From an uncultured Alistipes sp. (GTDB taxonomy: Bacteria > Bacteroidota > Bacteroidia > Bacteroidales > Rikenellaceae): a stretch of DNA of 64,000 nt. Shown one piece after another: positions 18,496-54,016 of this stretch (within the stretch, counting starts at the first letter, position 1; every line of letters begins with the position of its first letter). The stretch covers positions 62,001-126,000 of the forward strand of contig CALUNE010000001.1 in assembly GCA_944321945.1 (NCBI GenBank), written 5' to 3'. The position numbers and the translations under genes are program-made. The notes under the pieces are model-generated. The model did not search any database, was not told where the DNA came from, and saw only the letters and a list, made by a program, of their open reading frames with translations.

Positions 18496-18525
18496 CGAAG
18501 CCCTTCCCCGACGGGAAGGGCTTCG
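18496..18525 (-). terminator. Hairpin between GH43 and GH97, possible attenuator
   Basis: A 13-bp stem (18496-18508 with 18513-18525) and 4-nt loop, followed on the minus strand by a short TTTAA. With no strong T-run it may reduce rather than stop transcription into the sulfatase end of PUL1. Confidence 0.55.
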
Positions 18526-18577
18526 GGCAATCCTTGCAAATGGGTATGTCTCGATCGTTTCCGACCGGACGCCCTCC

Positions 18578-22715: not shown

Positions 22716-22753
22716 AAGCAGGGTTTTAGTGGTTTTATTGATTTGTTTTTCGT

Positions 22754-25741: not shown

Positions 25742-25751
25742 GGTTTGCGGA

Positions 25752-27170: not shown

Positions 27171-27178
27171 CGTTGCGA

Positions 27179-28354: not shown

Positions 28355-28368
28355 GGTTCGGTTCGGGT

Positions 28369-29625: not shown

Positions 29626-29639
29626 AGTTTTCCGGTTGT

Positions 29640-30803
29640 TTATTTGAATTTGTATTCGTGCCACCACGTGCCGGCCGGGTTGTCACCGTTCAGGTAGAGG
29701 TAGCAATCCAATGCGCGACCGCAGTCGCTCGAGAGGAAGTTGTAGGTTTTGTCCCAGTCGACGTTACCGATCGTCTCGCTGGTGTAGAGTTTCACCTTCA
29801 GGTAGTCGGTCGTGTACTCCGAGCCGAGGCTGCTCTGGGTTCCCAGATAGAGCTTCGAACCGTCGCCGAGCGTGGCGTTGAAGCGGTGACGCGTGTCGTT
29901 GGCCGAGTTGTCCGAGATGGTGTTCTCGTAGTCGAGCAGCACCCAAACGCCCTTGCCGGCGTAGGTCATCGGCTCGCGGACGGTCGACATCTTGTTGTCG
30001 GCCCAGGCGGCGGCGTAGTACTCGATGCTGGTGACGGTGTTGTACTCCCAGGTCATCACGCCGAAGTCGACCTTGATCCAGTAGATGGCTTCCGACGGCA
30101 TGCGGTTGTTGACCGGCGTTTCGGAGTAGGTGATCGTTCCGTCGTCGTTCAGGGCGTAGTAGCGGTTCAGGTCGTCGACGACGGTGAAGTCGGTGCTGCC
30201 CTTGATCTTGGTGAAGCACTCGAAGGTACCCTCCGTGGCGGCGGTGTTGTCGATGCCCGGCGATACGATCATCGGGATGCCGGCCGTCGGGTCTTCAACG
30301 GCGTCGCCCGTCAGGGTGACGGTCTGCGGCAGCGGCGACATCGAGTTCATCGTCGTGACGGTGATCAGCCGCGATTCGGCATAGAGGTTTCCGTTGATGC
30401 CTTTCGAGGCGCGGACCGTCCAGCGCAGCTTGCCCTTTTCCATGATGCCGAGGCCGGCGGCCTGGGCCACCGAGTTGAGCTCCTTGGCCGTGACGGTCAG
30501 ATAGGTCTGCGAGCCGGTAAGCTGGCTGGTCAGGGCGGCCAGCGGCTGAGAGAAATCGCCGTTTTCGCGGTCGAAGAGCAGTTCGTAGGAGACGAATCCG
30601 TTGTCTTCGGCTACCGAAGGGCTCCATTCGAAGCGGACGTCCGAACCCAGCGAGAGGTCATACTCGGCGTCGATCTTCGGCAGATAGAGCTGGTCGCCGG
30701 TCTGGATGTTGTAGTTGATCTCATTGCCGTCGTCGGTGCATCCCGTGGCGAACGGCGCGGCCGCAAGGGCCAGGATCGTTATGTTTCGCAATAAGGTATT
30801 CAT
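29640..30803 (-). CDS. SusE-like outer-membrane lipoprotein
   Basis: The 387-residue lipoprotein (AAPFATGCTDDGNE) has a SusE-type first domain (FEWSPSVAEDNGFVSYELLFDRENGDFSQP), a middle segment (FTVVDDLNRYYALND, YWIKVDFGVMTWEYN) and a C-terminal domain (EPMTYAGKGVWVL, DTRHRFNATLGDG) matching the paralogue at 27179. I chose the ATG at 30803 because it starts the signal peptide. It follows SusD after 35 bp, the position of SusE in the classic sus operon, and precedes GH76 by 14 bp. Confidence 0.82.
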   Translation of the reverse strand: MNTLLRNITILALAAAPFATGCTDDGNEINYNIQTGDQLYLPKIDAEYDLSLGSDVRFEWSPSVAEDNGFVSYELLFDRENGDFSQPLAALTSQLTGSQTYLTVTAKELNSVAQAAGLGIMEKGKLRWTVRASKGINGNLYAESRLITVTTMNSMSPLPQTVTLTGDAVEDPTAGIPMIVSPGIDNTAATEGTFECFTKIKGSTDFTVVDDLNRYYALNDDGTITYSETPVNNRMPSEAIYWIKVDFGVMTWEYNTVTSIEYYAAAWADNKMSTVREPMTYAGKGVWVLLDYENTISDNSANDTRHRFNATLGDGSKLYLGTQSSLGSEYTTDYLKVKLYTSETIGNVDWDKTYNFLSSDCGRALDCYLYLNGDNPAGTWWHEYKFK

Positions 30804-30838
30804 AATCTTCGGTTCGTTAGGATTGTTGCGGCAGAGAT

Positions 30839-32497
30839 CTACCATCCGGGATTCTGCGTGAGGTTGCTGTTGATGTCCCGTTCGCTCTGCGGGATCGGGA
30901 ACCAGTATTTCATGTTGTAGGGAGTTGCGCAGATGATGTTGCTGCCGTCGTCGAGGAACGGGGCGCCCGTAGCCTGCGAGGTCAGATAGGCGGCGCCGGT
31001 GCTCTTGAGCGAGGGGTTGTCCATCAGGGCCCAGCGGCGGATGTCGAAGCAGCGGCGGCCCTCCAGGGCAAGTTCCGCACGACGCTCGTCGCGGATCGTC
31101 TGACGCAGATCCTGGCCGTCGCCCGGATATGCGCAGTAGGCCTCGTCGAATCCGGCGCGCTCACGCAGCGGGCGGATCGTGGCGTTCCATACGTCGGCAC
31201 TCATCTTGCCCGTTTCGTACATCGACTCGGCATACATGAGCAGCACGTCGGCATAGCGCATCTCCATCAGGGGCTTGTACGAGCCGCCGCCGGCACCTAC
31301 CGTGTTGGCCACGTAGTTCTTGATGTTGTAGTAGCCCGTCTGCGTACGGTCCTGCGTGCTGTTGTACGAGTCGGCCAGTGCGGGGTCGGTCTGCTGAGCG
31401 ACGGCTTCGTCGTTGGGGTTGGTCCAGCAGGTGTAGGTACCCTTGCCGACACCCTCCGAGCCGATGATCTTGCAGGCCTTGGCCTCGGGGATCTCGATCG
31501 TGCAGCCGTTGTAGGCGATCGTGGCGTAGAAGCGCAGGTCGCGGTTCTCGTAATCCGTATCGTCGGCTACCGAACCGTCGGTCTTGCGGAAGCAGTCCAC
31601 GAGCTCCTGCGTGGGCGAGAACGAGACGATGCCGCCCGAGCCGATCGACTGCGGGATGCGGCTGCCGGTGTCCCAGCTGCGCTTGATGTTCTCCACGCCG
31701 CCTTCGTAGGCGAATTCGAGGGTCAGGATCGACTCCGAACCGTAGTAGCCCGAGCGGAAGAGTTCGGCGTAGTCCGAAGCCAGGGCGTAGGTGCCGTATT
31801 CGGTGCTGTTGATGAGCTTCTCGCACTCGCGGGCGCAGTTTTCGAAGTCGTTGTCCAGCAGGTAGGCGCGGGCGTTCAGGGCGACGGCCGTACCGCACGT
31901 GACGCGGCCGTTCTCATCCGAGGGGATCTCGGTGTTCTTGGGCAGGATGTGCGACACCTCCTCCAGCTCCGAGTGGATGAAGGCCTTGATCACGTCGGCG
32001 CTCGTACGCGAGACGGCCTTCGATTCGGGGAGCGTGGGGTTGCTCGTCAGGAAGGGCACGTCGCCGAACCACGTCGTCAGACGCATGTAGGTGAAGGCCC
32101 GGAAGAGCCGCAGCTCGGCGACCAGACGCGTCTTGACGCTTTCGTCGATGTTCATGCGGCCCTGGTTGTCGAGTGCCGTATGGATCGTGCGCAGCTCCTG
32201 GTAGCACTGGTTCCATTCGTCGGAGAAGCGGCCTCCGCTGGTGGTGGACAGACCCGTCACCGTGTTGGTCGAGTTCGACGAGTGGCGGCTGCCGTAGACG
32301 TCATCCGAGAGGATGTTGTTGCCGAAGTACATGTCGGCATTCCAGTATTGGTTGTAGGCGAGGTAGAGGGCTGCCATGCAGTTGTCCTCGTAGTTCCAGA
32401 AGGTCTCGTCGGTGAAGGAGTTGGTGGGGTATTGCTCGATGCCGACGCAACCGACCAGTCCCAACATCAGTAACGAGAGTATGGCGTGTTTTTTCAT
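30839..32497 (-). CDS. susD: SusD/RagB-family nutrient-binding lipoprotein (PUL1)
   Basis: This 552-residue SusD homologue has a lipobox (MLGLVGCVGIEQYP), the N-terminal segment with DETFWNYEDNCMAALYLAYNQYW, helical TPR-like repeats (AELRLFRAFTYMRLTTWFGDVPFLT) and the conserved C-terminal block RRAELALEGRRCFDIRRW. It forms the lid on the SusC barrel and captures oligosaccharides at the cell surface. It lies 16 bp downstream of its SusC partner. The gene symbol denotes the family. Confidence 0.93.
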   Translation of the reverse strand: MKKHAILSLLMLGLVGCVGIEQYPTNSFTDETFWNYEDNCMAALYLAYNQYWNADMYFGNNILSDDVYGSRHSSNSTNTVTGLSTTSGGRFSDEWNQCYQELRTIHTALDNQGRMNIDESVKTRLVAELRLFRAFTYMRLTTWFGDVPFLTSNPTLPESKAVSRTSADVIKAFIHSELEEVSHILPKNTEIPSDENGRVTCGTAVALNARAYLLDNDFENCARECEKLINSTEYGTYALASDYAELFRSGYYGSESILTLEFAYEGGVENIKRSWDTGSRIPQSIGSGGIVSFSPTQELVDCFRKTDGSVADDTDYENRDLRFYATIAYNGCTIEIPEAKACKIIGSEGVGKGTYTCWTNPNDEAVAQQTDPALADSYNSTQDRTQTGYYNIKNYVANTVGAGGGSYKPLMEMRYADVLLMYAESMYETGKMSADVWNATIRPLRERAGFDEAYCAYPGDGQDLRQTIRDERRAELALEGRRCFDIRRWALMDNPSLKSTGAAYLTSQATGAPFLDDGSNIICATPYNMKYWFPIPQSERDINSNLTQNPGW

Positions 32498-32513
32498 AGA
32501 CTTGTAGGTGTTT

Positions 32514-35500
32514 TTAGAAAGTCAGATTGATACCGCCGCCCCAGTAGCGAAGGGTCGGGTAGTTACGCAGGGAGTTGGCACCGGATTTGCCCATGTTGCT
32601 TCCGAACTCCGAGCTTTCGGGATCGAAGAATCCGTATTTGGTAAAGGTCAGCGGGTTCTGGGCGTCGAGATAGATGCGCAGGCTCTTGCAGCCGAACTTC
32701 TTGGTCCAGCGCTCGGGCAGCGTGTAGCCCAACTGGATGTTCTTCACGCGCAGATAGGCCGTCTCGACCATGTTGAGTTCCGAACCGGGCTGACCCCAGT
32801 TGTTGGTGTTGCTGACGGTGCCGTTGACGGCCAGACGCGGCCATTCGGCATCGGTATTCTGCGGGGTCCAGTAGTCGAGCTGGTGCTCGTACATCGTCAG
32901 ACCGTAGTCGCTGTGGAACGGCTGCACGAGCTCACCGCGGATGGCCTGCGTACGCTTCATGACGCCCTGGAGCATGATGCCCAGATCGATGCCCTTCCAG
33001 CTGACGTTGTAGCTGAAGCCGTAGGTGTAGCGCGGGAAGGCGTAGCCCAGGTAGGTGCGGTCGTCGTTGTCGATCACACCGTCCTCGTTGATGTCGACGT
33101 AGCGCACGTCACCCGGACGCAGCTGCGAGCGGTCGATCGTCGAGGGGATGGCGGCGTTCTGAATCTCCTCGTAGCTGGAGAAGTAGCCGGCGACCTTGTA
33201 GCCGTAGTAGGAGTTCAGCGGGAGACCCTCCTGGATGATGGTGGTCACACCGTCGACCGAAGCGATGTTCGGCGTACCGTAGGTCACCACTTCGTTCTTC
33301 GAATCGGCGAGGTTGAGCGAGAAGCGGTGCTTCCAGGCGCCGCGGTTCAGATCGTAGTTGATCGTCACCTCCCAGCCCTGGTTGTCCATCACGCCGCGGT
33401 TCTCCTTGGCGATGCTGGCGCCGAAGACGCCCGGGACGATGGCCGGCAGCAGGATGTCCGACGTCCGCTTGTAGAAGTAGTCGAAGTTGACGTTCAGCGT
33501 GTTGTGGAAGAACGAGGCGTCCAGACCGACGTTGAAGGTCTTCGAGCGCTCCCACGTCAGGGCTTCGTTACCCATCGTGAACATCAGACCCGGAACCGAG
33601 CTTCCGTTGAAGCCGTAGGCGTCGGTCCAGATGCCGTAGGTGGTCATGAAGTCGTACAGACCCACATCCTGCTGGTTACCGTTGATACCGTACGAGGCGC
33701 GGAACTTCAGGTCGCCGACCTTGTTGCGGTAGTCGCCCATGAACTCCTCTTCGGAGAGGCGCCATCCGAGCGATACGGCCGGGAAGAAGCCGCCGTTGCG
33801 TACCTTGAGGAACTTCGACGACATGTCGTAACGGGCCGTGAACTCGACGTAGTATTTGTCGGCGTAGGAGTATCCCACACGGCCGAACCACGACTGCAGG
33901 GCCTGACGCGTGTTGTCCTGCGACGAAAGCGTCGTGCCGCTGTCGCTGGTCACCGTGCCTTCGCTGGGCTGGTTCAAGTCGTTCAGATAGGTCTTCGAGG
34001 CGTTGATCGAGTAGTGTTTCTTCGACTCCTGCGACCAGCCGAACAGAGCCGTCACGTTGTGTTTTTCGTTGAACGTGCGGTTGAAGTCCAGCAGGACCTG
34101 ACCGTTGAGATAGGTGTCGCGGCCCACCCAGTCGTCGGCGGGCGTCGTGGTGCTGCCCGAGAGGACGGCCGTCGAGGGGTCGGACCAGTTGGCGCCGTTG
34201 TCCGTCACGACGTAGTAGGTCATGTGGTCGGAGAAGCGGTGCTCGGTACGCGTCTCGGCGCTGAGCACACCGCGGAGTTTCAGACCCTTGAAGATCTCGA
34301 AGTCGGCGTTGAAGATACCGCTCAGATAGTCGTTGTCATACTTGTTGTACCCCCCCCCGACAAGTCCGGCCAATACGGCACCGCTGCCGCCATACTTATA
34401 GTTATTGCCGTAGAAGATGCCGTTTTCGTCCATCGTACGCATGAAGTAATAGGTCGGGTAGCGCGACAGGTCGGCGAAGAGGTATCCCGACGTGGTGGGC
34501 GATTTGGTTTCGGAACGCGTGTAGCTGATGTTGGCGCCGACCTTCAGACGGCCCCATTCGGTCGAGAGGTTCGAACGCACGTTGTAGCGCTGGCGGCCGT
34601 AGTCCGGGCCGATGTAGTTGGACTCCTGGTCGAAGTAGCCGGCCGAGAGCATGTAGGTCGTGTGTTTCGTACCGCCCGATACGGAGAGGTTGTAGTTCTG
34701 CTGCAGGGCGTTCTGCATGGCCTGGTTGACGTAGGGCTCGCAGTCGCCGTGGATGTACATGTCCTGGATTTCGGCGGCCGAGAAGATCGGTTCGCGGCCC
34801 GAGTTGACGAGGGCTTCGTTGCGCAGAATCGAGTTCTGGTACGAGGGAACGGGCTCAAAGAGAATGTGCGGTTCCTGTACGCCAAGCTGTGCGCTGAACG
34901 AGATCGAGGGATCCATTTCGCGGTGCCCCTGCTTGGTGGTGATCAGGATGACACCGTTCGACGAGCGGGCGCCGTAGATGGCGGCCGACCCGGCATCCTT
35001 GAGAATGTTGACCGATTCGATGTCGTTGGGGTTGAGCTCGTTCATTCGCGAGGCATCGGCCTGCGGCACGCCGTCGATGACCACCAGCGGGGTGTTGTTA
35101 CCCATGGTGTTGACGCCTCGGATCGAGAGGTTCATCTGGTCGCCGCCCGTCGGGTCGTAGTTGCGGGTCTGAATGATCAGGTTGGCTGCCGTACCCTGCA
35201 GGGCCTGCTGGATGTTGGCGACGGGTCGGTCGGCGAGGTCTTCGCGGTTGACCGTCGAGATGGCCGAAGTGATGTGTCGCCGGGTGGTGGTACCGTAACC
35301 GATGACGACCACTTCGTCCAGATAGCTTGTGTCTTCGGTCATCGTCACCGAGATTTCGGTCTTTGTACCGACGCTCTCCGTAACGGTTTTGTAGCCGAGG
35401 TAGACGAACTTCAGCTGGTCGGAGTCCTTGACTCCCTTGATAAGATAGGTACCGTCGGCGCCGGTGGCCGTACCGTTGACCGTTCCGTCGACGATCACGG

Positions 35501-35645
35501 AGACTCCGACAAGCGGTTGCCCCTTCTCATCCACGATTCTGCCGCTTACCGATTTGGTTGCGGACTGCCCGTAAGCTCCGTTGATCCCGATAGCGATCAG
35601 ACACCACAGCAATGCGAGCATGCATGAAATCGATTTCTTGATCAT
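32514..35645 (-). CDS. susC: SusC/RagA-family TonB-dependent transporter (PUL1)
   Basis: The 1043-residue outer-membrane barrel imports glycan fragments. After the signal peptide comes a carboxypeptidase-regulatory-like domain (SVSGRIVDEKGQPLVGVSV, residues ~30-110), the TonB-interaction and plug segment (LDEVVVIGYGTTTRR; IRGVNTMGNNTPLVVIDGVPQ; LKDAGSAAIYGARSSNGVILITT), the barrel, and a terminal Phe typical of BAM substrates. It is the first gene of the PUL1 operon, with a ~110-nt leader. Codons 430-432 are three successive GGG (nine G in a row), in a stretch whose codon use is more AT-rich than the rest of the gene. Confidence 0.95.
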   Translation of the reverse strand: MIKKSISCMLALLWCLIAIGINGAYGQSATKSVSGRIVDEKGQPLVGVSVIVDGTVNGTATGADGTYLIKGVKDSDQLKFVYLGYKTVTESVGTKTEISVTMTEDTSYLDEVVVIGYGTTTRRHITSAISTVNREDLADRPVANIQQALQGTAANLIIQTRNYDPTGGDQMNLSIRGVNTMGNNTPLVVIDGVPQADASRMNELNPNDIESVNILKDAGSAAIYGARSSNGVILITTKQGHREMDPSISFSAQLGVQEPHILFEPVPSYQNSILRNEALVNSGREPIFSAAEIQDMYIHGDCEPYVNQAMQNALQQNYNLSVSGGTKHTTYMLSAGYFDQESNYIGPDYGRQRYNVRSNLSTEWGRLKVGANISYTRSETKSPTTSGYLFADLSRYPTYYFMRTMDENGIFYGNNYKYGGSGAVLAGLVGGGYNKYDNDYLSGIFNADFEIFKGLKLRGVLSAETRTEHRFSDHMTYYVVTDNGANWSDPSTAVLSGSTTTPADDWVGRDTYLNGQVLLDFNRTFNEKHNVTALFGWSQESKKHYSINASKTYLNDLNQPSEGTVTSDSGTTLSSQDNTRQALQSWFGRVGYSYADKYYVEFTARYDMSSKFLKVRNGGFFPAVSLGWRLSEEEFMGDYRNKVGDLKFRASYGINGNQQDVGLYDFMTTYGIWTDAYGFNGSSVPGLMFTMGNEALTWERSKTFNVGLDASFFHNTLNVNFDYFYKRTSDILLPAIVPGVFGASIAKENRGVMDNQGWEVTINYDLNRGAWKHRFSLNLADSKNEVVTYGTPNIASVDGVTTIIQEGLPLNSYYGYKVAGYFSSYEEIQNAAIPSTIDRSQLRPGDVRYVDINEDGVIDNDDRTYLGYAFPRYTYGFSYNVSWKGIDLGIMLQGVMKRTQAIRGELVQPFHSDYGLTMYEHQLDYWTPQNTDAEWPRLAVNGTVSNTNNWGQPGSELNMVETAYLRVKNIQLGYTLPERWTKKFGCKSLRIYLDAQNPLTFTKYGFFDPESSEFGSNMGKSGANSLRNYPTLRYWGGGINLTF
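34350..34358 (-). repeat. Poly-G(9) tract inside the PUL1 susC gene
   Basis: Nine consecutive C on the plus strand encode Gly430-432 as GGG-GGG-GGG on the coding strand. Such homopolymers are prone to slippage; a one-base change would shift the frame of SusC. Confidence 0.95.
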
Positions 35646-35684: not shown

Positions 35685-35771
35685 CGGGAACTTTTCCCGT
35701 TTCCCACAACAAATGTATTTATTTAATGTATCTTCGGGTGTACGTTTTTGTGCCATTTAAGTACAAAGATA
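35685..35771 (-). promoter_or_regulatory. PUL1 promoter region and leader elements
   Basis: On the minus strand there are two matches to the -7 box: TATCTTTG at 35764-35771 and TACATTTG at 35710-35717. Neither has a clear TTTG at 19-20 bp, as expected for an activator-dependent PUL promoter. The leader contains a 7-bp direct repeat (AATGTAT on the plus strand at 35712-35718 and 35725-35731, period 13) and a hairpin CGGGAA-CTT-TTCCCG at 35685-35699. I cannot tell which -7 box is used; the direct repeat could bind the AraC-type regulator encoded divergently. Confidence 0.5.
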
Positions 35772-35803
35772 TACTTGCAAGGTTTTTTATGCGAAAAAAA
35801 ACG

Positions 35804-35811: not shown

Positions 35812-35830
35812 AGGGTAAATAGTACGAATT

Positions 35831-38800
35831 ATGGACATCGAACCCTTTTTTCGGACGATATTGGCAAGTACGCTGGCCGTAATGGCGTTTTCGCCGGCCG
35901 GAGCCGGGAATCTTCGGATGATTTCCAGCCGCGAGGGAATCAGCAACAACTCCGTCCTGTGTCTGGATCAGGATGCGGAGGGTTTCATCTGGGTCGGAAC
36001 CTGCGAAGGTCTCAATTTCTGGGACGGACAGCGCATGGACAGTTATCCGCCCGCGGGGAGCGGCATGCGGCCGCTGTCGGGCAATCTGATCGAGAAGATC
36101 CAGCCGACGACGGACCATTGCAGCTGGCTGCGTACCAACTACGGCCTTGACCTGATGCAGCGCGGCAAGGTCGTCGAACAGCACAAGGAGTTTCAGGGCA
36201 TCTATTTCCTGATCAGCCGATGCAAATCCGAAACGATCGTCCTCACGCAGGGGAATGCCTTCTACGGCTATTGCGAGGAGACCTCGTCGTTCCGGCGCAT
36301 CGAAACGCTCTTTCCGTTCGACGATTACATCACCTCCTGGGCCGCGGCGGGCGATTCGGTCTATATTTTCCGCACGGACGGCATCTTCCGCACCGCGTTT
36401 GCCTCGCGGCGTGCCGGTGAACCGAGCCGCCTGCGGGCGCTGGAGTGCGTACAGCCTGTGGCATTGAGCTATGCCTTTGCCGACCGCGATTCGGTGCTGC
36501 TGATCGACCGGCGGGGCTACCTTTATGTATTCGACCCGAAGAGCGAGGTGCTGGAGTACATTGCCGACATCAGCGGTGAGATAGCCCGTTACGGCAAGGT
36601 CTCCTATGCGATCCGCTACGGCAACGATTTTCTGGTGTCGTTTCTCTTCGACGGCGTCACGAAACTCCGCTTCACGCCCGAGGATCCCCGACGCTATGTC
36701 ACCGAGCGGCTCGATATCAACTGCGGTGTCTTCTGTCTGCTCAAGGACGACAAGCAGGATGTCGTCTGGATCGGCAGCGACGGCCAGGGGCTCTTCATGT
36801 ATGCCAACGACGAGCTGTCGTTCCATTCGTACACCTACGACAAACTCCCCTACAACCTTTCCAAACCGGTCCGCAGTCTGCTGCTGGATTCCCGCGGCAA
36901 GCTGTGGTTCGCCACCAAGGGTGAGGGCATCATCCAGATCCCGGACTTCTCGACGGCCCGCAAACCCGACCGTTTCGTGCAGATCAACGGACCCGGATCG
37001 GGATTGGCCGACCATGCCGTCTTTGCGCTGGAGGAGAGTGTCCGCGGTGTGGTGTGGATCGGTTCGGAGGGCTATGGAATCAACTATCAGTCGCTGGCGG
37101 GCGGGCCTGTCCGCACGTTGGGCGGGGATCTTCCGCCCGATCTGCGCTACATCCACGCCATTCGCGAAAGCCATCGGGATACGCTGTGGGTGGCGACGGT
37201 GGGGTGCGGCGTCTTCCGGCTGACGCTCGGCGAACGGGGCGGCACCCCCTACGTCCGGACGTGGAAAAAGCTGGACTTCGGCAAGGCGCTCGAAAACAAG
37301 ACCTTTTTCTTTACGCTGTTCGAGGACAACGACCATACGCTCTGGATCGGTAACCGCGGCGGCGGTCTGATCCACTACTACCCCGACCGGGATTCCTGCA
37401 CGGTGACGACCTTTTCCGATTCGCGGGCCGAGATTGCCGATGACGTGTGGGCCATCCATCGGGCCGCCGACGGACGGCTGTGGATCGGAACGAGCTGGGG
37501 GCTGCTGTCGCTGGGGGCCGACGGCACGGTGAGCGAGACGCCGATCCGCAACATCATCCACGGAATTCTGGAGGACAGCGACGGAAAGCTCTACCTCTCG
37601 ACGAACAGCGGACTGGTGCGCTACGATCCCGAGACCCGTTCGCAGGCCCGCTACGGCTATTCCTACGGCATCAATACGATCGAATACAGCGACGGCGCGG
37701 CGTGGAAGGATCCGGCGAGCGGACTGCTCTTTTTCGGCGGCACGAACGGTTTCGTCGTCATGGAGCGGACCCGCTACAAGAGCGAACCCTTCTACCCCGA
37801 ACTGCTGTTCCGCTACGTGCGGATCAACGAGCGGCTGATCCCCTTCGAGGATGCCGTGACGCGTGACAGCGTACTTGTCGTGCGTCCGCACGAGCGGCTC
37901 TACGACGTGGGAGTCATCGCTCTCGACTACATCAACGGCAGCAACTATACTTATCTCTATAATGTGGAGGGGATGGAGCATCGCTGGCTCGAATCCTCGC
38001 CGGACGTGCAGTTTGCCGAGCGTCACCCGGGACGTTACCGGCTCAACGTGCGTTACAAGAACGTGGTGACGGGCGATCTGGGACCGGTCCGTTCGCTGCT
38101 GATTGTCATCCGCGCGCCGTGGTATGCGAGCGTGGTGGCCAAACTGCTCTATGCGCTGACGTTCGTGCTGGCGGTGACGGTGATCAGCCGTTCGTGGTAC
38201 CGTCGGCGTCAGAAACGGCGCGCGGCCGCACTCGAACGCATCGAGGCCAAACGCAAGGAGGAGATTCTCGATTCGAAACTCCATCTGATGGAGAATCTGG
38301 CCCAGCAGATGGCCGGCCCGGTCTTCATGATTTCGGTGCCTTGCCAGCAGATGCTCGACTATGCGCAGGCGGACGACTACATCCGCAAACAGTCGAAACG
38401 GATTCTGCGGCAGGGCGAAAAGCTCTCGAACATCATCCACATGCTGCACAATTTCCGCGAATCGAGCGAGTCGGGCAACAACATCAGCGTGAAGATCTTC
38501 TCCGTGACGGAGTATGTCTCGGAGATTGCCAAGAGCTACGAATCGCTGGCCCGTGACAAGGGTCTTCGCTTCGAGATGCATCTGCCGGAGGAGCTGCTCT
38601 GGACGAGCGATCCGAAACGGATCTCGGCCGTGGTGGACATGACCATGGCCAATGCCTTCCTGCATGTGGCCCGCCGCGGGCGGATTCTCCTCGAGGTGGC
38701 GGTTCAGGACGAAAGGCTCGCCTTCCGGCTCGATGTCGAGGGGCACTGGCTCGACGAGGAGGAGTTCGACCGGCTGACCGACCGCTACGACATGATGGAG

Positions 38801-39841
38801 GATTTCCAGCGTTCGGGCGAACGCGGGCAGTCGTTCCAGGACGAGATGCGTCTGGTGGTCTGCGTCAACTACGTGACGGGTCTGGGCGGCACGATGCGGC
38901 TGAAGGATGCGGACGGCCATTTCACCATCGAGATCGAGCTTCCGTCGCTCAACATCTCCTCGGCGGAGGCCGAGGCGGCCGGGGAGTTCTCCGAGGAGTA
39001 TCTGCCCAACAGCCACATCCTGATGATCGAGAAGGAGGGAATCCGGCAGTTCGACACCGCCTCGGACCGCCCGACGATGTTCATCATCGGTTCCGACGCC
39101 GGGATCATCAACTCCATAGCGGAGATGTTCTCCGAGGAGTACAACATCCGCGCGTTCCGCCGGGCCGAGAAGTTCTCCGAGGAGATGCAGGCCGGTTATC
39201 CGGACATCATCCTCTGCGAGAACATCGCCATGAAGGAGGAGCTGACGGAGCTGATGGCCTCGGTCAAGCGCGACCGCATGACGGTGAAGATCCCCATCAT
39301 CCTGATCACGAGCCTGCAGCACGCCGATTCTCCGACCGACGAGTATGCGGATTCGGTGCTGTCGCTGCCGATCAACGTCAAGACGCTGCAGTTCACCGTC
39401 CGGCAGAGCCTGAACCGGATCAGCTCGCTGCGCGAGTACTACAACTCGTCGGTGAGCGTCTACGAGTTCAGCGACGGCAAGATGCTCCACAGCGAAGACC
39501 GGAAGTTTCTCGAGAAGCTCTTCAAGATCATCCAGGAAAACCTCTCGGACAACGGCATGACCACGGCGACGATTGCCGAGCGGATGGGCATGAGCCTGCG
39601 GAATCTCTACCACCGGCTCGACGGGCTGGTGAACGTCACGCCGAGCAACATCATCCGCGAATACCGGCTCACCTATGCCGAGCACCTGCTGATGAAGACC
39701 AAGCTCTCGGTCGACGAGATCATCTACAAGTCGGGATTCTCCAACCGCGGAACCTTCTTCAAGAACTTCTCGGCCAAATACGGCTGTACGCCGAAGGCCT
39801 ACCGGACCCGGAAGATGGAGGATGTCTCCGAGCCTCGCTGA
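35831..39841 (+). CDS. HTCS-like sensor/AraC regulator with degenerate kinase and receiver domains
   Basis: The 1336-residue protein has the layout of a Bacteroidota hybrid two-component system: signal peptide, ~14-bladed Reg_prop propeller (repeats such as WVGTCEGLNFW, WIGSDGQGLF, WIGNRGGGLI), a Y_Y_Y domain (~690-750), one membrane helix (~767-788), a HisKA/HATPase-like region (~805-1045), a receiver-like domain (~1080-1195) and an AraC DNA-binding domain (~1235-1330, SLRNLYHRLDGL, GFSNRGTFFKNF). The H-box NISHELRTP is NLAQQMAGP here, so the phospho-acceptor His is Gln825. The DxG box reads VEG and the glycine-rich G2 box is missing. The receiver acidic pair is G1087-S1088, the phospho-acceptor is Glu1130 and the conserved Lys is Leu1179. 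The phosphorelay therefore looks inactive. It lies between PUL1 (divergent) and PUL2 (same strand). Confidence 0.9.
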   Translation: MDIEPFFRTILASTLAVMAFSPAGAGNLRMISSREGISNNSVLCLDQDAEGFIWVGTCEGLNFWDGQRMDSYPPAGSGMRPLSGNLIEKIQPTTDHCSWLRTNYGLDLMQRGKVVEQHKEFQGIYFLISRCKSETIVLTQGNAFYGYCEETSSFRRIETLFPFDDYITSWAAAGDSVYIFRTDGIFRTAFASRRAGEPSRLRALECVQPVALSYAFADRDSVLLIDRRGYLYVFDPKSEVLEYIADISGEIARYGKVSYAIRYGNDFLVSFLFDGVTKLRFTPEDPRRYVTERLDINCGVFCLLKDDKQDVVWIGSDGQGLFMYANDELSFHSYTYDKLPYNLSKPVRSLLLDSRGKLWFATKGEGIIQIPDFSTARKPDRFVQINGPGSGLADHAVFALEESVRGVVWIGSEGYGINYQSLAGGPVRTLGGDLPPDLRYIHAIRESHRDTLWVATVGCGVFRLTLGERGGTPYVRTWKKLDFGKALENKTFFFTLFEDNDHTLWIGNRGGGLIHYYPDRDSCTVTTFSDSRAEIADDVWAIHRAADGRLWIGTSWGLLSLGADGTVSETPIRNIIHGILEDSDGKLYLSTNSGLVRYDPETRSQARYGYSYGINTIEYSDGAAWKDPASGLLFFGGTNGFVVMERTRYKSEPFYPELLFRYVRINERLIPFEDAVTRDSVLVVRPHERLYDVGVIALDYINGSNYTYLYNVEGMEHRWLESSPDVQFAERHPGRYRLNVRYKNVVTGDLGPVRSLLIVIRAPWYASVVAKLLYALTFVLAVTVISRSWYRRRQKRRAAALERIEAKRKEEILDSKLHLMENLAQQMAGPVFMISVPCQQMLDYAQADDYIRKQSKRILRQGEKLSNIIHMLHNFRESSESGNNISVKIFSVTEYVSEIAKSYESLARDKGLRFEMHLPEELLWTSDPKRISAVVDMTMANAFLHVARRGRILLEVAVQDERLAFRLDVEGHWLDEEEFDRLTDRYDMMEDFQRSGERGQSFQDEMRLVVCVNYVTGLGGTMRLKDADGHFTIEIELPSLNISSAEAEAAGEFSEEYLPNSHILMIEKEGIRQFDTASDRPTMFIIGSDAGIINSIAEMFSEEYNIRAFRRAEKFSEEMQAGYPDIILCENIAMKEELTELMASVKRDRMTVKIPIILITSLQHADSPTDEYADSVLSLPINVKTLQFTVRQSLNRISSLREYYNSSVSVYEFSDGKMLHSEDRKFLEKLFKIIQENLSDNGMTTATIAERMGMSLRNLYHRLDGLVNVTPSNIIREYRLTYAEHLLMKTKLSVDEIIYKSGFSNRGTFFKNFSAKYGCTPKAYRTRKMEDVSEPR

Positions 39842-40320: not shown

Positions 40321-43300
40321 ATGAAGAAACTATTGACGAAAGTTCAAATGCTGTGTGCCGTCCTGCTGACGATCACATTGTTGCAGCCCGAACTGACCGT
40401 CGCCCAGCGGGGAGGAGGGAAATTCACCCTGAACGGCACCGTCCAGGGGGACGGCCAGCCTCTGGTCGGTGCGACGATCGTGGAGCCGGGAACTTCGAAC
40501 GGAACCGTGACCGGTTCGGACGGAAAATTCTCGCTCTCGCTCTCCAAACGGGGCGCCTCCATCCAGGTCTCCTTCATCGGCTATCAGACCAAGACCCTGA
40601 CGGCCAATGCCGATTTTCTGGAGATTGCACTCGATTCCGATACGCAGGCGATCGACGAGGTGATGGTCGTGGCCTACGGTACGATGCGTAAGCGCGACGT
40701 GACGGGCTCGATCGCCTCGATCTCGTCGGAATCCATCGAGCGGAAGATCCCTTCGAGCGTGTTCGACGCCCTGCAGGGCCAGGTGGCCGGCGTACAGATC
40801 ACCGCCGGATCGGGTCAGCCGGGTGAGAGCGCACAGATCAACATCCGCGGTATCTCGACTTTCTCGGCCGAGGGTGTCAAGCCGCTCTACGTCGTCGACG
40901 GAATCCCGATGGAGGACATCGATGCCATCAACCCGGGCGATATCGTTTCGATCGAGGTTCTCAAGGATGCCGCTTCGGCCGCCATGTACGGTTCGCGTTC
41001 GGCCAACGGCGTGATTCTGATCACGACCAAGGGCGGTCAGGAGGGGGCTCCGCGCGTCGACGTGAAGTACCTCCACTCGTGGGGCAAACTGTCGCACAAG
41101 CTGGCCCAGGCCACGCGTGCCGACCGCCGCAACTACGACATGCTGCGCCGCACCTACTTCCTGGAGAATTCGATCGGTTCGCCCGACGAAAGCTACATGA
41201 TCATCCAGGACTCGCTCAACAGCTCGTTTAACGTCGACAACGACTACCAGGATCTGCTCTTCCAGTGGGCGCAGAAGGATCAGGTGGATCTGAGCGTTTC
41301 GGGCGGTACGAAAAAGATGAAGTACTACGGCTCGACGGGTTACTACAACGAGCGCGGTATCGTCCCCAATACGAACTTCCAGCGTCTGACGGCCCGCATC
41401 AACGCCGACTATACGGCCAACAACTGGCTGACGCTCCACAGCCGCGTGTCGCTGGGCTACTCGCAGAAGAACGGTCTGGATGAAAGCGCGCTGATGACGT
41501 CGATGCTGTCGCGCCGCCCCTATTTCAACCTCTATTATCCGGACGGCACGCTGGCCGGCGTCTTCCAGGGCCAGAAGAGCCCGCTGGCGCAGGTGAAGTA
41601 TACGACCGACCGCACGGAGTACTACCAGGCCAATTTCTATCAGGGCTTCGAGGTTAAACTGGCCAAGAACCTGACCTTCCAGACGAGCATCAATGCCAAC
41701 TTCTACCTCAACAAGCGGCAGCGCGTCTATCCGAGCATGATTACCGACGAGTGGCAGACGAGTAACAGCGGATATGTCTCCGAGAACCTCAACTGGAACT
41801 GGCTGAACGAAAACGTGCTGACCTACAAGAACAAGTGGGGCAACCACAATTTCCAGGCCCTGCTGGGCTTCAGCGAGCAGCAGTGGCGCACGGATCAGAC
41901 CGTGCTGTCGGGCATCAACTCGTCGACGGATTTCATCACCACGATGAACGCCTTCTCGGCCAACCTCACGCTGAGCGACACGGGAACCTGGCAGACCAAC
42001 CACTCGATGGCCTCGTTCTTCGCCCGTGTGGCCTACGACTTCAAGTCGAAATACCTGATCCAGGCGACGTTCCGCCGCGACGGCTCGTCGCGTTTCTCGA
42101 AGTCCAACCGCTGGGGCAACTTCCCGTCGGTATCGGCGGCCTGGCGTCTTTCGGACGAGAACTTCATGGCCTTCTCGCGCCGCGCTCTGGACGATGCCAA
42201 GATCCGTGTCAGCTGGGGTATCACCGGTAACGAACAGATCGGCAACTACGACTACCTCTACTCCTATGCCACGGGCGACATCTACGACGGTGTGGGCGGC
42301 GTCTATCCGGCGCGTCTGGCCGTGGACAACCTGCGCTGGGAGGAGACGCGCCAGGTCGACGTGGGTCTCGATCTGAGCTTCTTCAACAACCGGCTGACCG
42401 TCACGGCCGACTACTACGACAAGTACACCGACGGCCTGCTGGCCAACCGTGAACTTCCCAAGGAGTCGGGCTTCTCGACCATGCGCACGAACGTCGGCGA
42501 GGTGAGCAACCGCGGTTTCGAATTCACGATCGGCGGCGATCTGATCCGTACGAAGGATTTCCGCTGGAACGCCTCGTTCAACATCTCGCGCAACTGGAAC
42601 ACCATCGAGAAGCTGTCGGAGGGTGAACCCTACCTCGAGGGCGACCTGTGGTGGATGGCCGAGGGCGGTTCGATCGGCGACTTCTACGGCTACAAGCAGA
42701 TCGACATCTTCCGTTACGACGAATCGAACGCCTTCACGCCCGATACGTGGCAGCAGCTGACGCCCGTCTTCGAGAACGGCGCCTTCAGCCACTACACGCT
42801 CGACGGGCAGGTCTATACGGGGGCCATCGCCCAGAAGAAGCTGCCCAACGGCAAGGCCTTCCGCGGCGGCGACGTCAACTGGGAAGAGGCCGAGGGCTCG
42901 CGCGACGGCATCATCGACGAGAACGACCGCATGATCATCGGCAATGCCCTGCCGACCTACACGGGCGGTTTGAGCACGACGTTCTCCTACAAGAACGTAA
43001 GCCTGTTCGTCTCGTTCTACTATTCGTTCGGCGGCCAGATCTACAACAACGCCGAGCATCAGCGCAACATGTTCAAGTATTCGTCGACGACGCCTTCGCC
43101 CGACGTGATCAACAACATCTGGGTTCATCAAGGCGACGAGGCGCTCTACCCGCGCCCCTACAACGACGAGTACAACAACGCCCGTTATGCGAACTCGTTC
43201 TATGTCGAGGACGGCGACTACATCCGCCTGTCGAACATCCGTCTGTCGTACGATCTTCCCGAGCGCTGGATCCGTTCGCTGCACATCCAGGGGCTGCAGG

Positions 43301-43452
43301 TCTATCTGTTCGGCAACAACCTGATGACGTGGACCCCCTACAGCGGATATGACCCCGAGTTCTCGTCGTCGAATCCGCTGCAGATCGGCAAGGACTCGTA
43401 CCGCTATCCCAAGAAGCGGGAGTTCGGTGTCGGTGTAAACGTTAAATTCTAA
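40321..43452 (+). CDS. susC: SusC/RagA-family TonB-dependent transporter (PUL2)
   Basis: The 1043-residue outer-membrane importer has a signal peptide (residues ~1-29), a carboxypeptidase-regulatory-like domain (FTLNGTVQGDGQPLVGATI), a plug (IDEVMVVAYGTMRKRDVTGSI; INIRGISTFSAEGVKPLYVVDGIP; LKDAASAAMYGSRSANGVILITT) and a barrel ending in VGVNVKF. It opens PUL2 and is followed by its SusD after 15 bp. It equals the PUL1 SusC in length but diverges in sequence, so the two systems probably import different glycans. Confidence 0.95.
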   Translation: MKKLLTKVQMLCAVLLTITLLQPELTVAQRGGGKFTLNGTVQGDGQPLVGATIVEPGTSNGTVTGSDGKFSLSLSKRGASIQVSFIGYQTKTLTANADFLEIALDSDTQAIDEVMVVAYGTMRKRDVTGSIASISSESIERKIPSSVFDALQGQVAGVQITAGSGQPGESAQINIRGISTFSAEGVKPLYVVDGIPMEDIDAINPGDIVSIEVLKDAASAAMYGSRSANGVILITTKGGQEGAPRVDVKYLHSWGKLSHKLAQATRADRRNYDMLRRTYFLENSIGSPDESYMIIQDSLNSSFNVDNDYQDLLFQWAQKDQVDLSVSGGTKKMKYYGSTGYYNERGIVPNTNFQRLTARINADYTANNWLTLHSRVSLGYSQKNGLDESALMTSMLSRRPYFNLYYPDGTLAGVFQGQKSPLAQVKYTTDRTEYYQANFYQGFEVKLAKNLTFQTSINANFYLNKRQRVYPSMITDEWQTSNSGYVSENLNWNWLNENVLTYKNKWGNHNFQALLGFSEQQWRTDQTVLSGINSSTDFITTMNAFSANLTLSDTGTWQTNHSMASFFARVAYDFKSKYLIQATFRRDGSSRFSKSNRWGNFPSVSAAWRLSDENFMAFSRRALDDAKIRVSWGITGNEQIGNYDYLYSYATGDIYDGVGGVYPARLAVDNLRWEETRQVDVGLDLSFFNNRLTVTADYYDKYTDGLLANRELPKESGFSTMRTNVGEVSNRGFEFTIGGDLIRTKDFRWNASFNISRNWNTIEKLSEGEPYLEGDLWWMAEGGSIGDFYGYKQIDIFRYDESNAFTPDTWQQLTPVFENGAFSHYTLDGQVYTGAIAQKKLPNGKAFRGGDVNWEEAEGSRDGIIDENDRMIIGNALPTYTGGLSTTFSYKNVSLFVSFYYSFGGQIYNNAEHQRNMFKYSSTTPSPDVINNIWVHQGDEALYPRPYNDEYNNARYANSFYVEDGDYIRLSNIRLSYDLPERWIRSLHIQGLQVYLFGNNLMTWTPYSGYDPEFSSSNPLQIGKDSYRYPKKREFGVGVNVKF

Positions 43453-43467
43453 AAGGCTCGCAACAAC

Positions 43468-44910
43468 ATGAAAAAGATTCAATACATACTTGCCGCTGTT
43501 GTGCTGGTTTCGGGATTGGGATCGTGTTCGTCGTTCCTCGACGAGCAGCCCGTGAGCGAGATTCCGGCCAACCAGATGTGGACCTCCTCGCGCGACGCCA
43601 AGGCGGGAGTCAGCCAGATCTACAGCTATTTCCGCACGGCAATGCGGGAGAACTACTTCTACTGGGGCGAATTCCGTTCGGACGACTTCGAGCCGGGCGC
43701 CTCGACGGCCGCCGATCAGCAGCGCGTGATCGACAACCAGATCACCACGGACCTCAACTGCACGAAGTGGACGGCCATCTATCAGGTCATCAACCAGGCC
43801 AATCTCTGCATCAAGTACCTGCCGCAGGTGGACATGCCTTCGGTGACGGACCGCAACGACCTGATGGGACAGGCCTATGCCATGCGGGCGCTGGCCTACT
43901 TCTATGCCGTCCGCGTGTGGGGCGACGTGCCGCTGTTCACCGACCCCAACGAGGCCTACAGCGACGCCATCTACCGCGAGCGCACCGACCGCGACTACAT
44001 CCTGCGCGAGGTGATTCTCAGTGACCTGCAGCAGGCCGAGGCCCTCCTCGACCGTACGGGCAACAAGGAGCGCAAACGCATCTCGATCTACGGCGCCTGG
44101 GCCATCATGGCCGATGTCTACATGTGGCTCGGCGAGTACAGCCTGGCCGATCAGACCATCGAGAAGATGAAGGACAATCCGACCTTCATGGCCTTCGAGC
44201 CGAGCATCGACACCTGGAAGAAGATGTTCGCCGAGGAGCTCAACAACAAGGCCAGCGACAACACGCCCGAAAACGACGAGTACAGCACCAAGGAGTTCAT
44301 TTTCGTCGTACACTTCAACATGGACGAGGTCGGATCGAACGGCTACAGCTACATGTACCAGTGGTTCACCGGATCGGGCAACCGCGCCGCGGTGGTTTCG
44401 GAGGTGCTGCGCAACAAGTACGACCAGGCGAAGGATCTCCGCTTCCCGATCGTCACGAAGAACTATCAGTCGGGCTGGGAGCTGCGCAAGTATATCTCGG
44501 GCGACATCTCGTCGACGCTGAACAAGACCTGCGAGGTGGCCTACCCGATCTATCGCTATACGGACATGCTGCTGTTGCAGGCCGAGGCGCAGGCCCGTCA
44601 GAGCAAGTGGGAGGAGGCGCTCGATCTGGTGAAGCCGATCCGCACGCGGGCCGGGCTGGAGACCCCCACGGCCGACGACTTCACGACCGAGGACGAACTG
44701 GTGGACTTCATCCTCGACGAGCGTCAGCGCGAACTCGTGGGCGAAGGACGCCGGTGGTTCGACCTCGTGCGCACGGGGCGCTGGAAGAGTGTCATGGGGC
44801 CGATCAACGGCTGCCAGGACGACGGCAACGAACTCTTCCCGATCCACTATTCCCACCTGGACCAGAACAAGAAACTGGTGCAGAACAGCTACTATGCAAC
44901 GAGTAAATAA
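43468..44910 (+). CDS. susD: SusD/RagB-family nutrient-binding lipoprotein (PUL2)
   Basis: The 480-residue SusD homologue has a lipobox (LGSCSSFLDEQP), N-terminal helices, AMRALAYFYAVRVWGDVPLFTDPNEAY and the C-terminal LDERQRELVGEGRRWFDLVRTGRW signature. It captures oligosaccharide for the adjacent SusC. At 480 residues it is shorter than the PUL1 SusD. It is followed after 21 bp by the fasciclin-domain lipoprotein. Confidence 0.93.
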   Translation: MKKIQYILAAVVLVSGLGSCSSFLDEQPVSEIPANQMWTSSRDAKAGVSQIYSYFRTAMRENYFYWGEFRSDDFEPGASTAADQQRVIDNQITTDLNCTKWTAIYQVINQANLCIKYLPQVDMPSVTDRNDLMGQAYAMRALAYFYAVRVWGDVPLFTDPNEAYSDAIYRERTDRDYILREVILSDLQQAEALLDRTGNKERKRISIYGAWAIMADVYMWLGEYSLADQTIEKMKDNPTFMAFEPSIDTWKKMFAEELNNKASDNTPENDEYSTKEFIFVVHFNMDEVGSNGYSYMYQWFTGSGNRAAVVSEVLRNKYDQAKDLRFPIVTKNYQSGWELRKYISGDISSTLNKTCEVAYPIYRYTDMLLLQAEAQARQSKWEEALDLVKPIRTRAGLETPTADDFTTEDELVDFILDERQRELVGEGRRWFDLVRTGRWKSVMGPINGCQDDGNELFPIHYSHLDQNKKLVQNSYYATSK

Positions 44911-44931
44911 ATTCCAAAAAACGATTCGATC

Positions 44932-45540
44932 ATGTACAGACAGATAATCACGGGCATGGCGTTGCTGCTGACGGTTGTTCTGGCGGGGTCCTGCTCCGAC
45001 ATGAAGCTGCAGACCGATGCCGATTACAACGCGACGGTGCTCGACCCGCATATTTCGATGACGGCCTGGGAATATTTCGAGAGCCGTTCGGACATCTTCA
45101 GCGATTTCATGGCGGCCATCGAGTATGCCGACATGAAGGACTACTATACGCAGACCGACCGGGAGTATACGTTCCTGGCTCTGACCAATACGGCGATCAA
45201 GGCCTTCGTGAGCAGCTATCCCGACAAATCGGCCATCACGGAGTGTCCGAAGGAGGACGTGCAGAATCTGCTCCGCTACCACATTGTCGACGGTTTCTAC
45301 AGCACCTACGGCGAACTGCCCGTCGAGGCGATCTACGTGCTGACGCTGCGGCGCGGCGAGGAGGGCCTGATGACGATGCTGGCGCGCAAGAACCCCTGGA
45401 TGGCCGATGCCGGATCGGTGATCGTCAACGATACGGGCACCAACGGCAATTCGCCGATGCGTCAGGCCGTCAGCTCGAACATCATGCCGACCAACGGCGT
45501 GATCCACGTCTTCAACTCCTACTGCTACTACAAGCGATAG
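44932..45540 (+). CDS. Fasciclin (FAS1)-domain lipoprotein in PUL2
   Basis: The 202-residue lipoprotein (VVLAGSCSDMK) has a single FAS1 fold: YTFLALTNTAIKAF (~82-95), LLRYHIVDGFYS (~115-126) and SSNIMPTNGVIHVFN near the C terminus, the classical last FAS1 strand. FAS1 domains mediate adhesion or carbohydrate contact. Its place right after SusD, where SusE or an SGBP normally stands, suggests a surface accessory to the SusCD complex. No catalytic motif is seen. The next ATG is 31 bp downstream. Confidence 0.8.
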   Translation: MYRQIITGMALLLTVVLAGSCSDMKLQTDADYNATVLDPHISMTAWEYFESRSDIFSDFMAAIEYADMKDYYTQTDREYTFLALTNTAIKAFVSSYPDKSAITECPKEDVQNLLRYHIVDGFYSTYGELPVEAIYVLTLRRGEEGLMTMLARKNPWMADAGSVIVNDTGTNGNSPMRQAVSSNIMPTNGVIHVFNSYCYYKR

Positions 45541-45570
45541 GGCATGCCGAACATTAAAACAACATCAACC

Positions 45571-47097
45571 ATGAACCAGAGAATATTTGCGATATGGGCC
45601 GGGCTGTTCGCCCTCCTGTCGGTTTCGTCGTGCAGCAAGGACGAAGGAATCGACCCTTCGGCGGCCGAACCCACCATTACCTATGCCTACGATCAGCTGG
45701 AGGCGGACCTCAATGTCATCGACAACCTGCCGATCGTGGCCGTCGTGAAGTCGGAGGCGGGGCTTCGGAGCGTGGCGCTCTCGATCCGCACCGCCGACGG
45801 GGAGTCGATTCCCGTGACGACGGTGACCGAATTCTTCAACCCGAAGAGCTACAGCCTTTCGGAGGAGATCAACTATGCGTCGGGCTATACGTCCGCGGTG
45901 ATCGAGGCGGTGGATCTGCTGGACCGCCGGGTCGAGGCGTCGTTGCCGATCACGATCATCGACGTCGTGGAGCCGCCGCAGATCGTCTTCGATCCGGCGT
46001 CCATCCAGTACGACGAGACCGTCGGCGGCGACATGCCCCGCACGCACATCGAGGTGTCGACCACCTCGACGCTGGCCTCCGTCGAACTCTACCGCGTGAA
46101 GGAGTCGGGACAGGAGCTCTACACGAGCGTGAACTTCACGGCGGAGGATCCGCAGAGCTCGTGGACGTTCGACGAGCTGGTCCAGTACGACGAATTTGAC
46201 AAGGGTCTGAAGGTGAGAGCCGTCGACAACTACGGCCAGATCCGCATCGAGACGCTGGCCGTCGAATACAAGACGGTTCCGCCTCCGGTGGTGACCTTTG
46301 CCGAGCAGACGATCCTGGCCGGCAAGGACGAGGAGAAGGCGGTCAACATCCACATGGAGTCGGAGGCCGGCATCGTCAAGGTCGAGCTCTACCGGCTGGA
46401 CGGTGTCACCGACAAACCGGTGCGCACGACCAGCTACGACCGGCTCAAGACGCTGGACTATGCCGAGACGATGACCTTCACGAATGCCACGAAGGGCGTG
46501 CGGGTAGTCGTTACGGACAACGTCGGGCGTACGACGACGGCCGAGGCCGCAGCGCTCGTGAACCTCTACTACGTAACGGATCTGCTGGTCAACACGGCGG
46601 TCTGCAACGACGGCGTGAACGACGGCAAGCGCATGCTGTCGATCAGCGACCGGCGGACCTATACCGTGCAGGAGTGTCTGGACGATTCTTCGCTGCAGTC
46701 GCACGTCGACGTGAAGGTCTACTACATGAACGGTAACACGGCAATCCGCATCTACAACATCAAGGACAACAAGAACAACGAATACAAGGCCGGCGACAAG
46801 GGTGTGCAGGACTTCGACGTGCTGAACGACACGCGCTTCAAGCAGGTCGACCTCGACTTCGATACGGCCACGGCCGCGGACATTGCCGCCATCGATGCCG
46901 CCACGATCCAGAGTACGTCGATCGTCGATACGCAGCAGGACGGACTGATCGGCGTGGTGCTGGCCGTGAAGCTGGCCTCGACGTCGCCCATGGCCGGCAA
47001 GGTGGCTCTGTTGAAGCTTGTGTCGGTGAGCGAGTATGTGGGAACGAACAAGAACGCCCGCACCTTCAACTTCGCACTCAAGCTCCCCAAGGAGTAA
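45571..47097 (+). CDS. Multi-domain surface lipoprotein, putative glycan-binding protein
   Basis: The 508-residue lipoprotein (LSVSSCSKDEG) has three tandem beta-sandwich repeats of ~100 residues (residues ~25-120, ~125-225, ~230-330). Each contains a VALSIRTADG/VELYRVKESG/VELYRLDGVT-type strand and ends in an 'AxDxxGR' turn (ALVDLLDRR, AVDNYGQ, VTDNVGRT). A ~170-residue C-terminal domain (LLVNTAVCNDGVNDGKRML onward) matches no family I recognise. I chose ATG 45571 over 45544 because it starts the signal peptide. Position suggests a surface glycan-binding protein; binding is not demonstrable from sequence. Confidence 0.7.
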   Translation: MNQRIFAIWAGLFALLSVSSCSKDEGIDPSAAEPTITYAYDQLEADLNVIDNLPIVAVVKSEAGLRSVALSIRTADGESIPVTTVTEFFNPKSYSLSEEINYASGYTSAVIEAVDLLDRRVEASLPITIIDVVEPPQIVFDPASIQYDETVGGDMPRTHIEVSTTSTLASVELYRVKESGQELYTSVNFTAEDPQSSWTFDELVQYDEFDKGLKVRAVDNYGQIRIETLAVEYKTVPPPVVTFAEQTILAGKDEEKAVNIHMESEAGIVKVELYRLDGVTDKPVRTTSYDRLKTLDYAETMTFTNATKGVRVVVTDNVGRTTTAEAAALVNLYYVTDLLVNTAVCNDGVNDGKRMLSISDRRTYTVQECLDDSSLQSHVDVKVYYMNGNTAIRIYNIKDNKNNEYKAGDKGVQDFDVLNDTRFKQVDLDFDTATAADIAAIDAATIQSTSIVDTQQDGLIGVVLAVKLASTSPMAGKVALLKLVSVSEYVGTNKNARTFNFALKLPKE

Positions 47098-47112
47098 CTG
47101 AAAAGGTTTTGA

Positions 47113-47158
47113 ATCGGAAATTCCTCCGGAGTATGGTTTCTTCGGAGGAATTTCCGAT
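47113..47158 (+). terminator. Hairpin between the PUL2 binding genes and enzyme genes
   Basis: A perfect 16-bp stem (47113-47128 with 47143-47158) extends by two further pairs around a ~10-nt loop. It is followed by CTTTGATACG, too T-poor for a firm terminator. It may set the SusCD/FAS1/SGBP genes at a higher level than the enzymes. GATCTTTG at 47156-47163 resembles a -7 box and could restart transcription. Confidence 0.65.
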
Positions 47159-47182
47159 CTTTGATACGTAAAAAGGACCCGA

Positions 47183-54011: not shown

Positions 54012-54016
54012 TTCCC

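Follow-up and report, generated by a model that had tools for sequence, protein, structure and literature searches.

A pseudo-HTCS regulator of Alistipes with conserved replacements at its phosphorelay sites, predicted to control an alpha-mannan operon

The 64,000-nucleotide stretch analysed here (hereafter the window) belongs to the genome of an uncultured Alistipes sp. (assembly GCA_944321945.1, contig CALUNE010000001.1, positions 62,001 to 126,000). Its gene at 35831-39841 (plus strand) encodes a 1336-residue regulator with the layout of a hybrid two-component system (HTCS) protein: sensor, membrane helix, DHp/CA kinase core, receiver (REC) and AraC domain. Comparison of related loci shows replacement of the catalytic residues in all orthologues found with at least 64% identity, purifying selection on the gene, and conservation of both the gene order and an operator-like block upstream. 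We consider it probable that this protein is a pseudo-HTCS, with a kinase and a receiver devoid of phosphate chemistry, which regulates transcription of the adjoining alpha-mannan operon while tethered to the membrane, in effect as a one-component system. As related proteins share the altered residues, signalling probably proceeds through changes of shape only, and we infer a phosphorylation-independent mechanism.

The open reading frame starts with ATG and continues for 1336 codons with zero internal stops, in agreement with the initial annotation of an HTCS-like regulator; descent from HTCSs is supported by phylogenetic trees and by synteny, the gene lying beside susCD in a polysaccharide utilization locus (PUL). 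The periplasmic sensor (residues 25-790, 35903-38200) consists of propellers and a Y_Y_Y domain followed by the membrane helix, and the AraC-type DNA-binding domain (39443-39814) occupies the C-terminus. These parts, which had been described as intact, are all present: Pfam recovers Reg_prop strongly in five stretches, HTH_18 strongly (71.5 bits) and Y_Y_Y only marginally (22.0 bits in one run and 27.4 in another, at a cut-off of 26.6). A profile built from the orthologous sensors, window included, hits the solved sensor structure 4a2l with an E of 2.8e-55, and the sensor model (mean pLDDT 79) ends in a helix.

The kinase core (38276-38965) is formed by DHp (residues ~816-895) and CA (~896-1045), and is followed by the pseudo-receiver (~1080-1195, 39068-39415). 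HATPase_c remains under the Pfam cut-off (18 versus 26.4 bits), and neither HisKA nor Response_reg appears in the Pfam list of the regulator, which was produced at a maximum E of 10 with filters that drop most matches above about 0.1. The CA part nevertheless seems to keep a kinase-like fold (8dx0, TMt 0.83, on a low-confidence model); the PDB matches of the cytoplasmic model were applied to the CA fold alone. As expected of pseudo-histidine kinases and pseudo-receivers, the sites are missing from a conserved gene whose domains are recognizable by alignment and fold and not as Pfam HisKA or Response_reg. Since the protein is an HTCS by descent, yet lacks the phospho-accepting His, the HATPase boxes and the acidic pair, Asp and Lys of the receiver, pseudo-HTCS is, as judged from these features, a fair name for it.

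Each relay site was verified by residue number and in an alignment that includes HTCSs from the window genome and from relatives. In the H box, Gln825 occupies the phospho-His site and Q826 replaces the following Glu. The ATPase has M937 at the first N-box Asn and QDEMRL as its G2 box, while the receiver carries G1087-S1088 for the acidic pair, E1130 for the phospho-Asp and L1179 for the Lys. The replacements previously read at positions 825, 1087-1088, 1130 and 1179 are thereby confirmed. So is the loss of the ATPase boxes, with the reservation that the DxG Asp column (V969 in the window) is occupied by Asn in most intact near relatives, where the Asp was therefore already absent. The second N-box Asn (N941), T1160 and P1180 are retained. 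Other HTCSs found in the window genome (2.2 Mb, 77.65% complete) keep the His, Glu and Asp sites in 8/8 cases and the Lys in 7/8. In one own-genome HTCS, L044 (C2:63500-68700), His and Asp are present, but Met stands at the receiver Lys position and the acidic pair is disrupted (EAN); to judge from these residues, comparable erosion may be at an early stage here. Overall, the phosphorylation site is reported missing in only 0.9% of HisKA domains (His) and 2.0% of receivers (Asp) (PMC12632262), and joint loss in every orthologue found therefore exceeds chance.

Eight orthologous loci (L036-L043) were recovered at 64-87% identity, the named ones belonging to Alistipes, including Alistipes montrealensis kh20 (L039), and to unclassified Bacteroidales. 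In searches of wider genome sets the best two or three candidates were scored per genome, and duplicates were discarded if their last 900 residues were identical. On these terms, 180 genomes of the genus yielded one further distinct orthologue (L057), and L040 proved the same as L073, from family f9, over the last 900 residues. Gln, Glu and Leu occupy the H, D and K sites in all ten distinct orthologues of at least 64% identity, window included, and orthologues with replaced sites span at least two families. A recent decay in one strain was rejected, given that all nine other distinct orthologues carry the same changes, which also supports the earlier claim that no phosphorelay is left. L040 (in f9) and L043 place the orthologue together with the adjoining GH76/SusCD operon beyond the genus of the window, at 64-65% identity; a transfer of the locus between families is possible.

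Twelve of the 36 possible orthologue pairs were computed for dN/dS. Whole-gene values were 0.09-0.20 in ten of them, with dS saturated in the other two, so that the check proposed with the initial annotation, recurrence of the substitutions under purifying selection, came out positive. Values were below 1 in every domain wherever defined, the propeller giving 0.09-0.17 in the ten defined pairs and the window-L036 pair giving 0.12 for DHp, 0.25 for REC, 0.17 for AraC and 0.37 for CA; the REC value of 0.50 in the L038-L042 pair was obtained at a dS of 0.04, i.e. from few changes. Together with the conserved operon synteny and operator-like block, these values bear out the statement that this is not a dead gene. 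Across nine orthologues, 267 of the 540 cytoplasmic columns are invariant, including 41/80 in DHp, and the largest share among the domains is found in AraC (80/124). Q825, Q826, M937, QDEMRL, G1087, E1130, L1179, V1152 and K1153 are invariant in 9/9. Synonymous variation occurs at G1087, E1130, L1179, V1152 and four of the six QDEMRL codons; Q825, Q826 and K1153 use a single codon throughout, and position 1088 is Ser in eight orthologues and Thr in one. Because the altered motifs are invariant against a background of 267/540 cytoplasmic columns, and many of the motif positions show synonymous changes, the motifs look kept, not drifting.

In order to place these losses, trees were built with the motif columns removed. 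The first omits the fragments L065, L079, L084 and L088, and the second further omits L114 (masked), the near-duplicates L057 and L071, and the own-genome paralogues L045, L046, L048, L050 and L051, which have long branches. The rows lacking the receiver Lys form one clade in both, of 18 rows in the first (support 100) and 17 rows in the second (SH-aLRT 100), drawn from families f1, f9 and f24. All 17 have the receiver Lys changed to Leu and the first acidic residue gone; loss of the second acidic residue is confined to the nine rows of the window's group, the other eight having kept it. The His is lost in 15/17 rows (Gln in 13, Arg in one, Thr in one) and the Asp likewise in 15/17 (Glu in 10, Gly in three, Asn in one, Thr in one). 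As to the omitted fragments, L079 has Arg, Ala and Leu at the three sites, and L065 has Gln at the His site, its receiver being missing. Two clade members, L063 and L064, in which the receiver Lys, first acidic residue and G2 box are already changed, are apparent intermediates on the basis of these positions. Outside the clade, the nearest relatives keep all sites except L115 (G822), which has Asn at the His site, retains Asp and Lys, and represents an independent His loss.

If regain is excluded, as the repeated-loss count assumes, the His was lost five times on the tree (four in the clade) and the Asp four times; repeated loss is favoured because the replacement residues differ. The branch leading to the window's group shows more change in the relay domains than in AraC: identity between the window and L059 is 24% for CA, 34% for REC and 60% for AraC, compared with 60%, 58% and 75%, respectively, between L059 and L063.

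A further change concerns the contact between the receiver and the DNA-binding domain (REC-DBD lock). Gao, Wu and Stock describe a conserved S/CHIP-D-K contact that holds the DNA-binding domain shut until phosphorylation, and substitutions in this motif lead to DNA binding without phosphorylation (PMC11253607). Off-consensus HTCSs, among them BT2628, BT3302, BT3786, BT2391 and BT4236, are predicted there to adopt varied orientations with little contact (PMC11253607). The S/CHIP part of the motif lies in the receiver and its Asp and Lys in the DNA-binding domain; the regulator departs from it, with VKIP, D1223 and R1262 as its lock residues. A complete S/CHIP-D-K is found in none of the 37 nearest rows (window included), versus 6/8 of the other HTCSs of the window genome. 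Twenty of the 37 rows fall outside the Lys-less clade, and rows with an intact phosphorelay are among the 37. As relatives whose phosphorelay is intact also lack the full motif, the lock was presumably relaxed first, which would free DNA binding from phosphorylation and permit the later losses. The receiver Lys and first acidic residue would then have been lost once, and the ATPase boxes, His and Asp last, the latter two apparently several times. More tentatively, we propose that a lineage in three Bacteroidales families lost the phosphorelay stepwise, that its glycan signal became purely conformational and passes through the dead DHp-CA-REC rod, and that the replacement motifs (QQMA, QDEMRL, CEN and VKIP) became subject to a different selection, perhaps by forming a novel surface for binding a ligand or partner.

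The probable target is the divergent operon to the left (16439-35645, minus strand), for which Pfam identifies GH97, GH43, SusE-like, GH115, GH125, SusE, GH76, SusE, SusD and SusC, a set of apparent alpha-mannan type. SusC-SusD-SusE-GH76-SusE faces the regulator in 8/8 orthologous loci and in L108, another record of the orthologous site; in the sister loci GH125 is found in 7/10 and a distant GH76 relative in 5/10. Between the divergent susC and the regulator lies the operator-like block GTAC-N17-GTAC (35740-35776, plus strand), which has a 21-bp period. The motif is exact in seven of nine orthologues and one base off in the other two, and 21 of the 37 columns of the block are invariant, versus 41/148 in the remaining susC-regulator gap. 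A half-site scan gave 11 matches in 593,280 bases (29 sequences) where ~0.64 would be expected from base composition, with a pattern devised after seeing examples, so that the scan is not independent; neither is a shuffle test of the block, its pattern being derived from the site itself. Seven of the matches fall at the orthologous site (the window and six of the eight orthologous loci) and one in L108. The 18 sequences without a match are L040, L043, seven other sister loci and the loci of intact-phosphorelay relatives, none of the nine of which was matched.

The sequence TAnnTTTG is the Bacteroides -7 consensus. An element of this kind for the left susC (35710-35717, minus strand), 22 bp from the operator-like block, is present in 9/9 orthologues as read by eye, and the sequence recurs at 35771 (minus strand) and 35804 (plus strand). 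Directly 5' of the start codon of the regulator, 9/9 orthologues carry an identical ATAGTACGA (35819-35827), which is similar to the operator-like block in its first half; a role in autoregulation or as a translation signal is possible. To the right of the regulator there is a second SusC/SusD cluster (40321-54931) with fasciclin, weak GH99-like, GH31, GH2 and SASA esterase genes, which lies beside the regulator in none of the eight orthologous loci within the 8 kb fetched.

Under the pseudo-HTCS interpretation, binding of mannan oligosaccharides by the propeller sensor would alter the geometry of the DHp helices and thereby that of the AraC pair on the operator-like block (35740-35776), so that susC is activated leftward. 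The dead kinase and receiver would act in this process as dimer scaffold and transmission rod.

Four rival explanations were weighed against this model, of which constitutive DNA binding is the serious one and presupposes the same anatomy. Here the regulator would be always operator-bound, its REC-DBD lock being gone, and would act as a constitutive activator or repressor controlled by its own level or by other factors, not by ligand. The off-consensus lock residues agree with this, as does BT2391, a non-consensus HTCS reported to repress its PUL (PMC11253607), and the invariant ATAGTACGA before the start codon could be an autoregulatory site. However, a ligand-blind regulator would not obviously need a large sensor whose propeller is as constrained as the dN/dS values indicate, and the TAnnTTTG box beside the block fits activation, so that we hold this explanation to be unlikely, if deserving of attention. 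Still less likely is a modulating subunit that forms mixed dimers with an intact HTCS or kinase, or acts on it in another way, as pseudo-histidine kinases such as DivL can. Pseudo-two-component proteins of this kind are discussed in PMC12632262, and the conservation of DHp, the dimer part, is what such a role would call for; also, the genome G178 holds an intact HTCS (L071) at 27% identity, among its best two to three candidates scored. Yet the next match in the window's own genome reaches only 25% identity (all 26 candidates scored), and of the 35 other predicted proteins of the window, the 30 covered included no recognized histidine kinase. A close intact partner was not seen in the window genome, at its 77.65% completeness. 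In the 99% complete genome G068, one match at E<=1e-100 was obtained among the best three of 36 candidates scored.

The initial annotation had suggested a lock by a phosphomimetic Glu1130; in this third explanation, the residue would stand in for phospho-Asp and hold the receiver active. This Glu is invariant in 9/9 orthologues and is also found in L062; nonetheless, the site holds Gly, Thr, Ala or Asn in sister rows, and the Lys and first acidic residue are gone in 17/17 clade rows and both acidic residues in the nine rows of the window's group, which makes the suggestion very improbable. A displaced, rather than dead, kinase would require that H818 and another acceptor took over. His818 (38282-38284), seven residues N-terminal to Q825, is invariant in 9/9 orthologues with CAT/CAC codon changes, and within the 37-row set it is restricted to these nine and absent from the other 28, which leaves a displaced His a slight possibility. 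The receiver, however, is without acidic pair, Asp and Lys, and the loss of the G2 box and of the first N-box Asn (now Met) leaves a working kinase here scarcely credible.

Several observations weigh against the pseudo-HTCS interpretation or its details. L063 and L064 keep both the His and the phospho-Asp, and the fewest changes on the tree (three for His, two for Asp) would imply regain in these rows. The f9 locus L114, with 47% identity over the sensor, has its kinase and receiver masked. CA is the most variable domain, and intact pairs behave alike, CA being less conserved than REC in 8/9 and than DHp in 9/9; looser selection on a dead ATPase was consequently rejected as a signature. The cytoplasmic model, with a mean pLDDT of 50, is too weak for the arrangement of its domains. 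As for the operator, GTAC is the main element that the two half-sites have in common, a related half-site occurs upstream of the regulator in only three of ten sister loci (L091, L093 and L094), and when 27 upstream regions were scanned for self-similarity, the GTAC block of the window did not stand out, so that the operator claim rests on cross-species conservation.

These results bear on the question of a phosphate requirement in HTCS regulators, which might instead use their scaffold to signal through shape. The conserved clade, its graded intermediates, the candidate operator and a named strain (A. montrealensis kh20) make the question directly testable. The clade further points to a possible order of dismantling for a signalling chain whose regulator stays in use, and labelling such genes as histidine kinases is misleading. 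Loss of the sites of a whole relay in one chain, in a conserved lineage with intermediates, was not described among the matches listed in the open-licence PMC literature.

Pseudo-histidine kinases are exemplified by DivL and RetS. Proteins of this class and pseudo-receivers, as treated in PMC12632262, resemble the window regulator in being conserved and in still taking part in signalling with a His or Asp site missing; control of a pseudo-receiver can come from contacts with other proteins, from ligands or from modification of another kind (PMC12632262). Unlike them, the window regulator has lost the His, ATPase and receiver sites together in a single chain that also bears the DNA-binding output. 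The closest parallel in residues is BT4236 of Bacteroides thetaiotaomicron, an HTCS with Gln at the His site and an off-consensus lock motif, for which a phosphorylation-independent mechanism has been suggested (PMC11253607); its motif, in contrast, is CSIP-EK instead of VKIP-D-R, and the passages on BT4236 mention the His change alone. In its genomic setting, the regulator resembles the HTCS_Man proteins BT2628, BT3302 and BT3786 of B. thetaiotaomicron, which likewise combine an off-consensus lock motif with alpha-mannan genes, here GH76 and GH125. Their operator reportedly consists of a 16-bp sequence directly repeated after 5 bp (PMC3878776), which corresponds to the 21-bp period of the window block; in the latter, a 16+5+16 layout is at most a candidate, as its half-sites resemble each other mainly in GTAC and did not stand out in the self-similarity scan. 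Canonical HTCSs such as BT4663, BT1754, BT4124 and BT3334, the receivers of which are phosphorylated in vitro (PMC11253607), share domain order, sensor fold, PUL location and AraC output with the window regulator, and differ from it in possessing the residues for phosphorylation.

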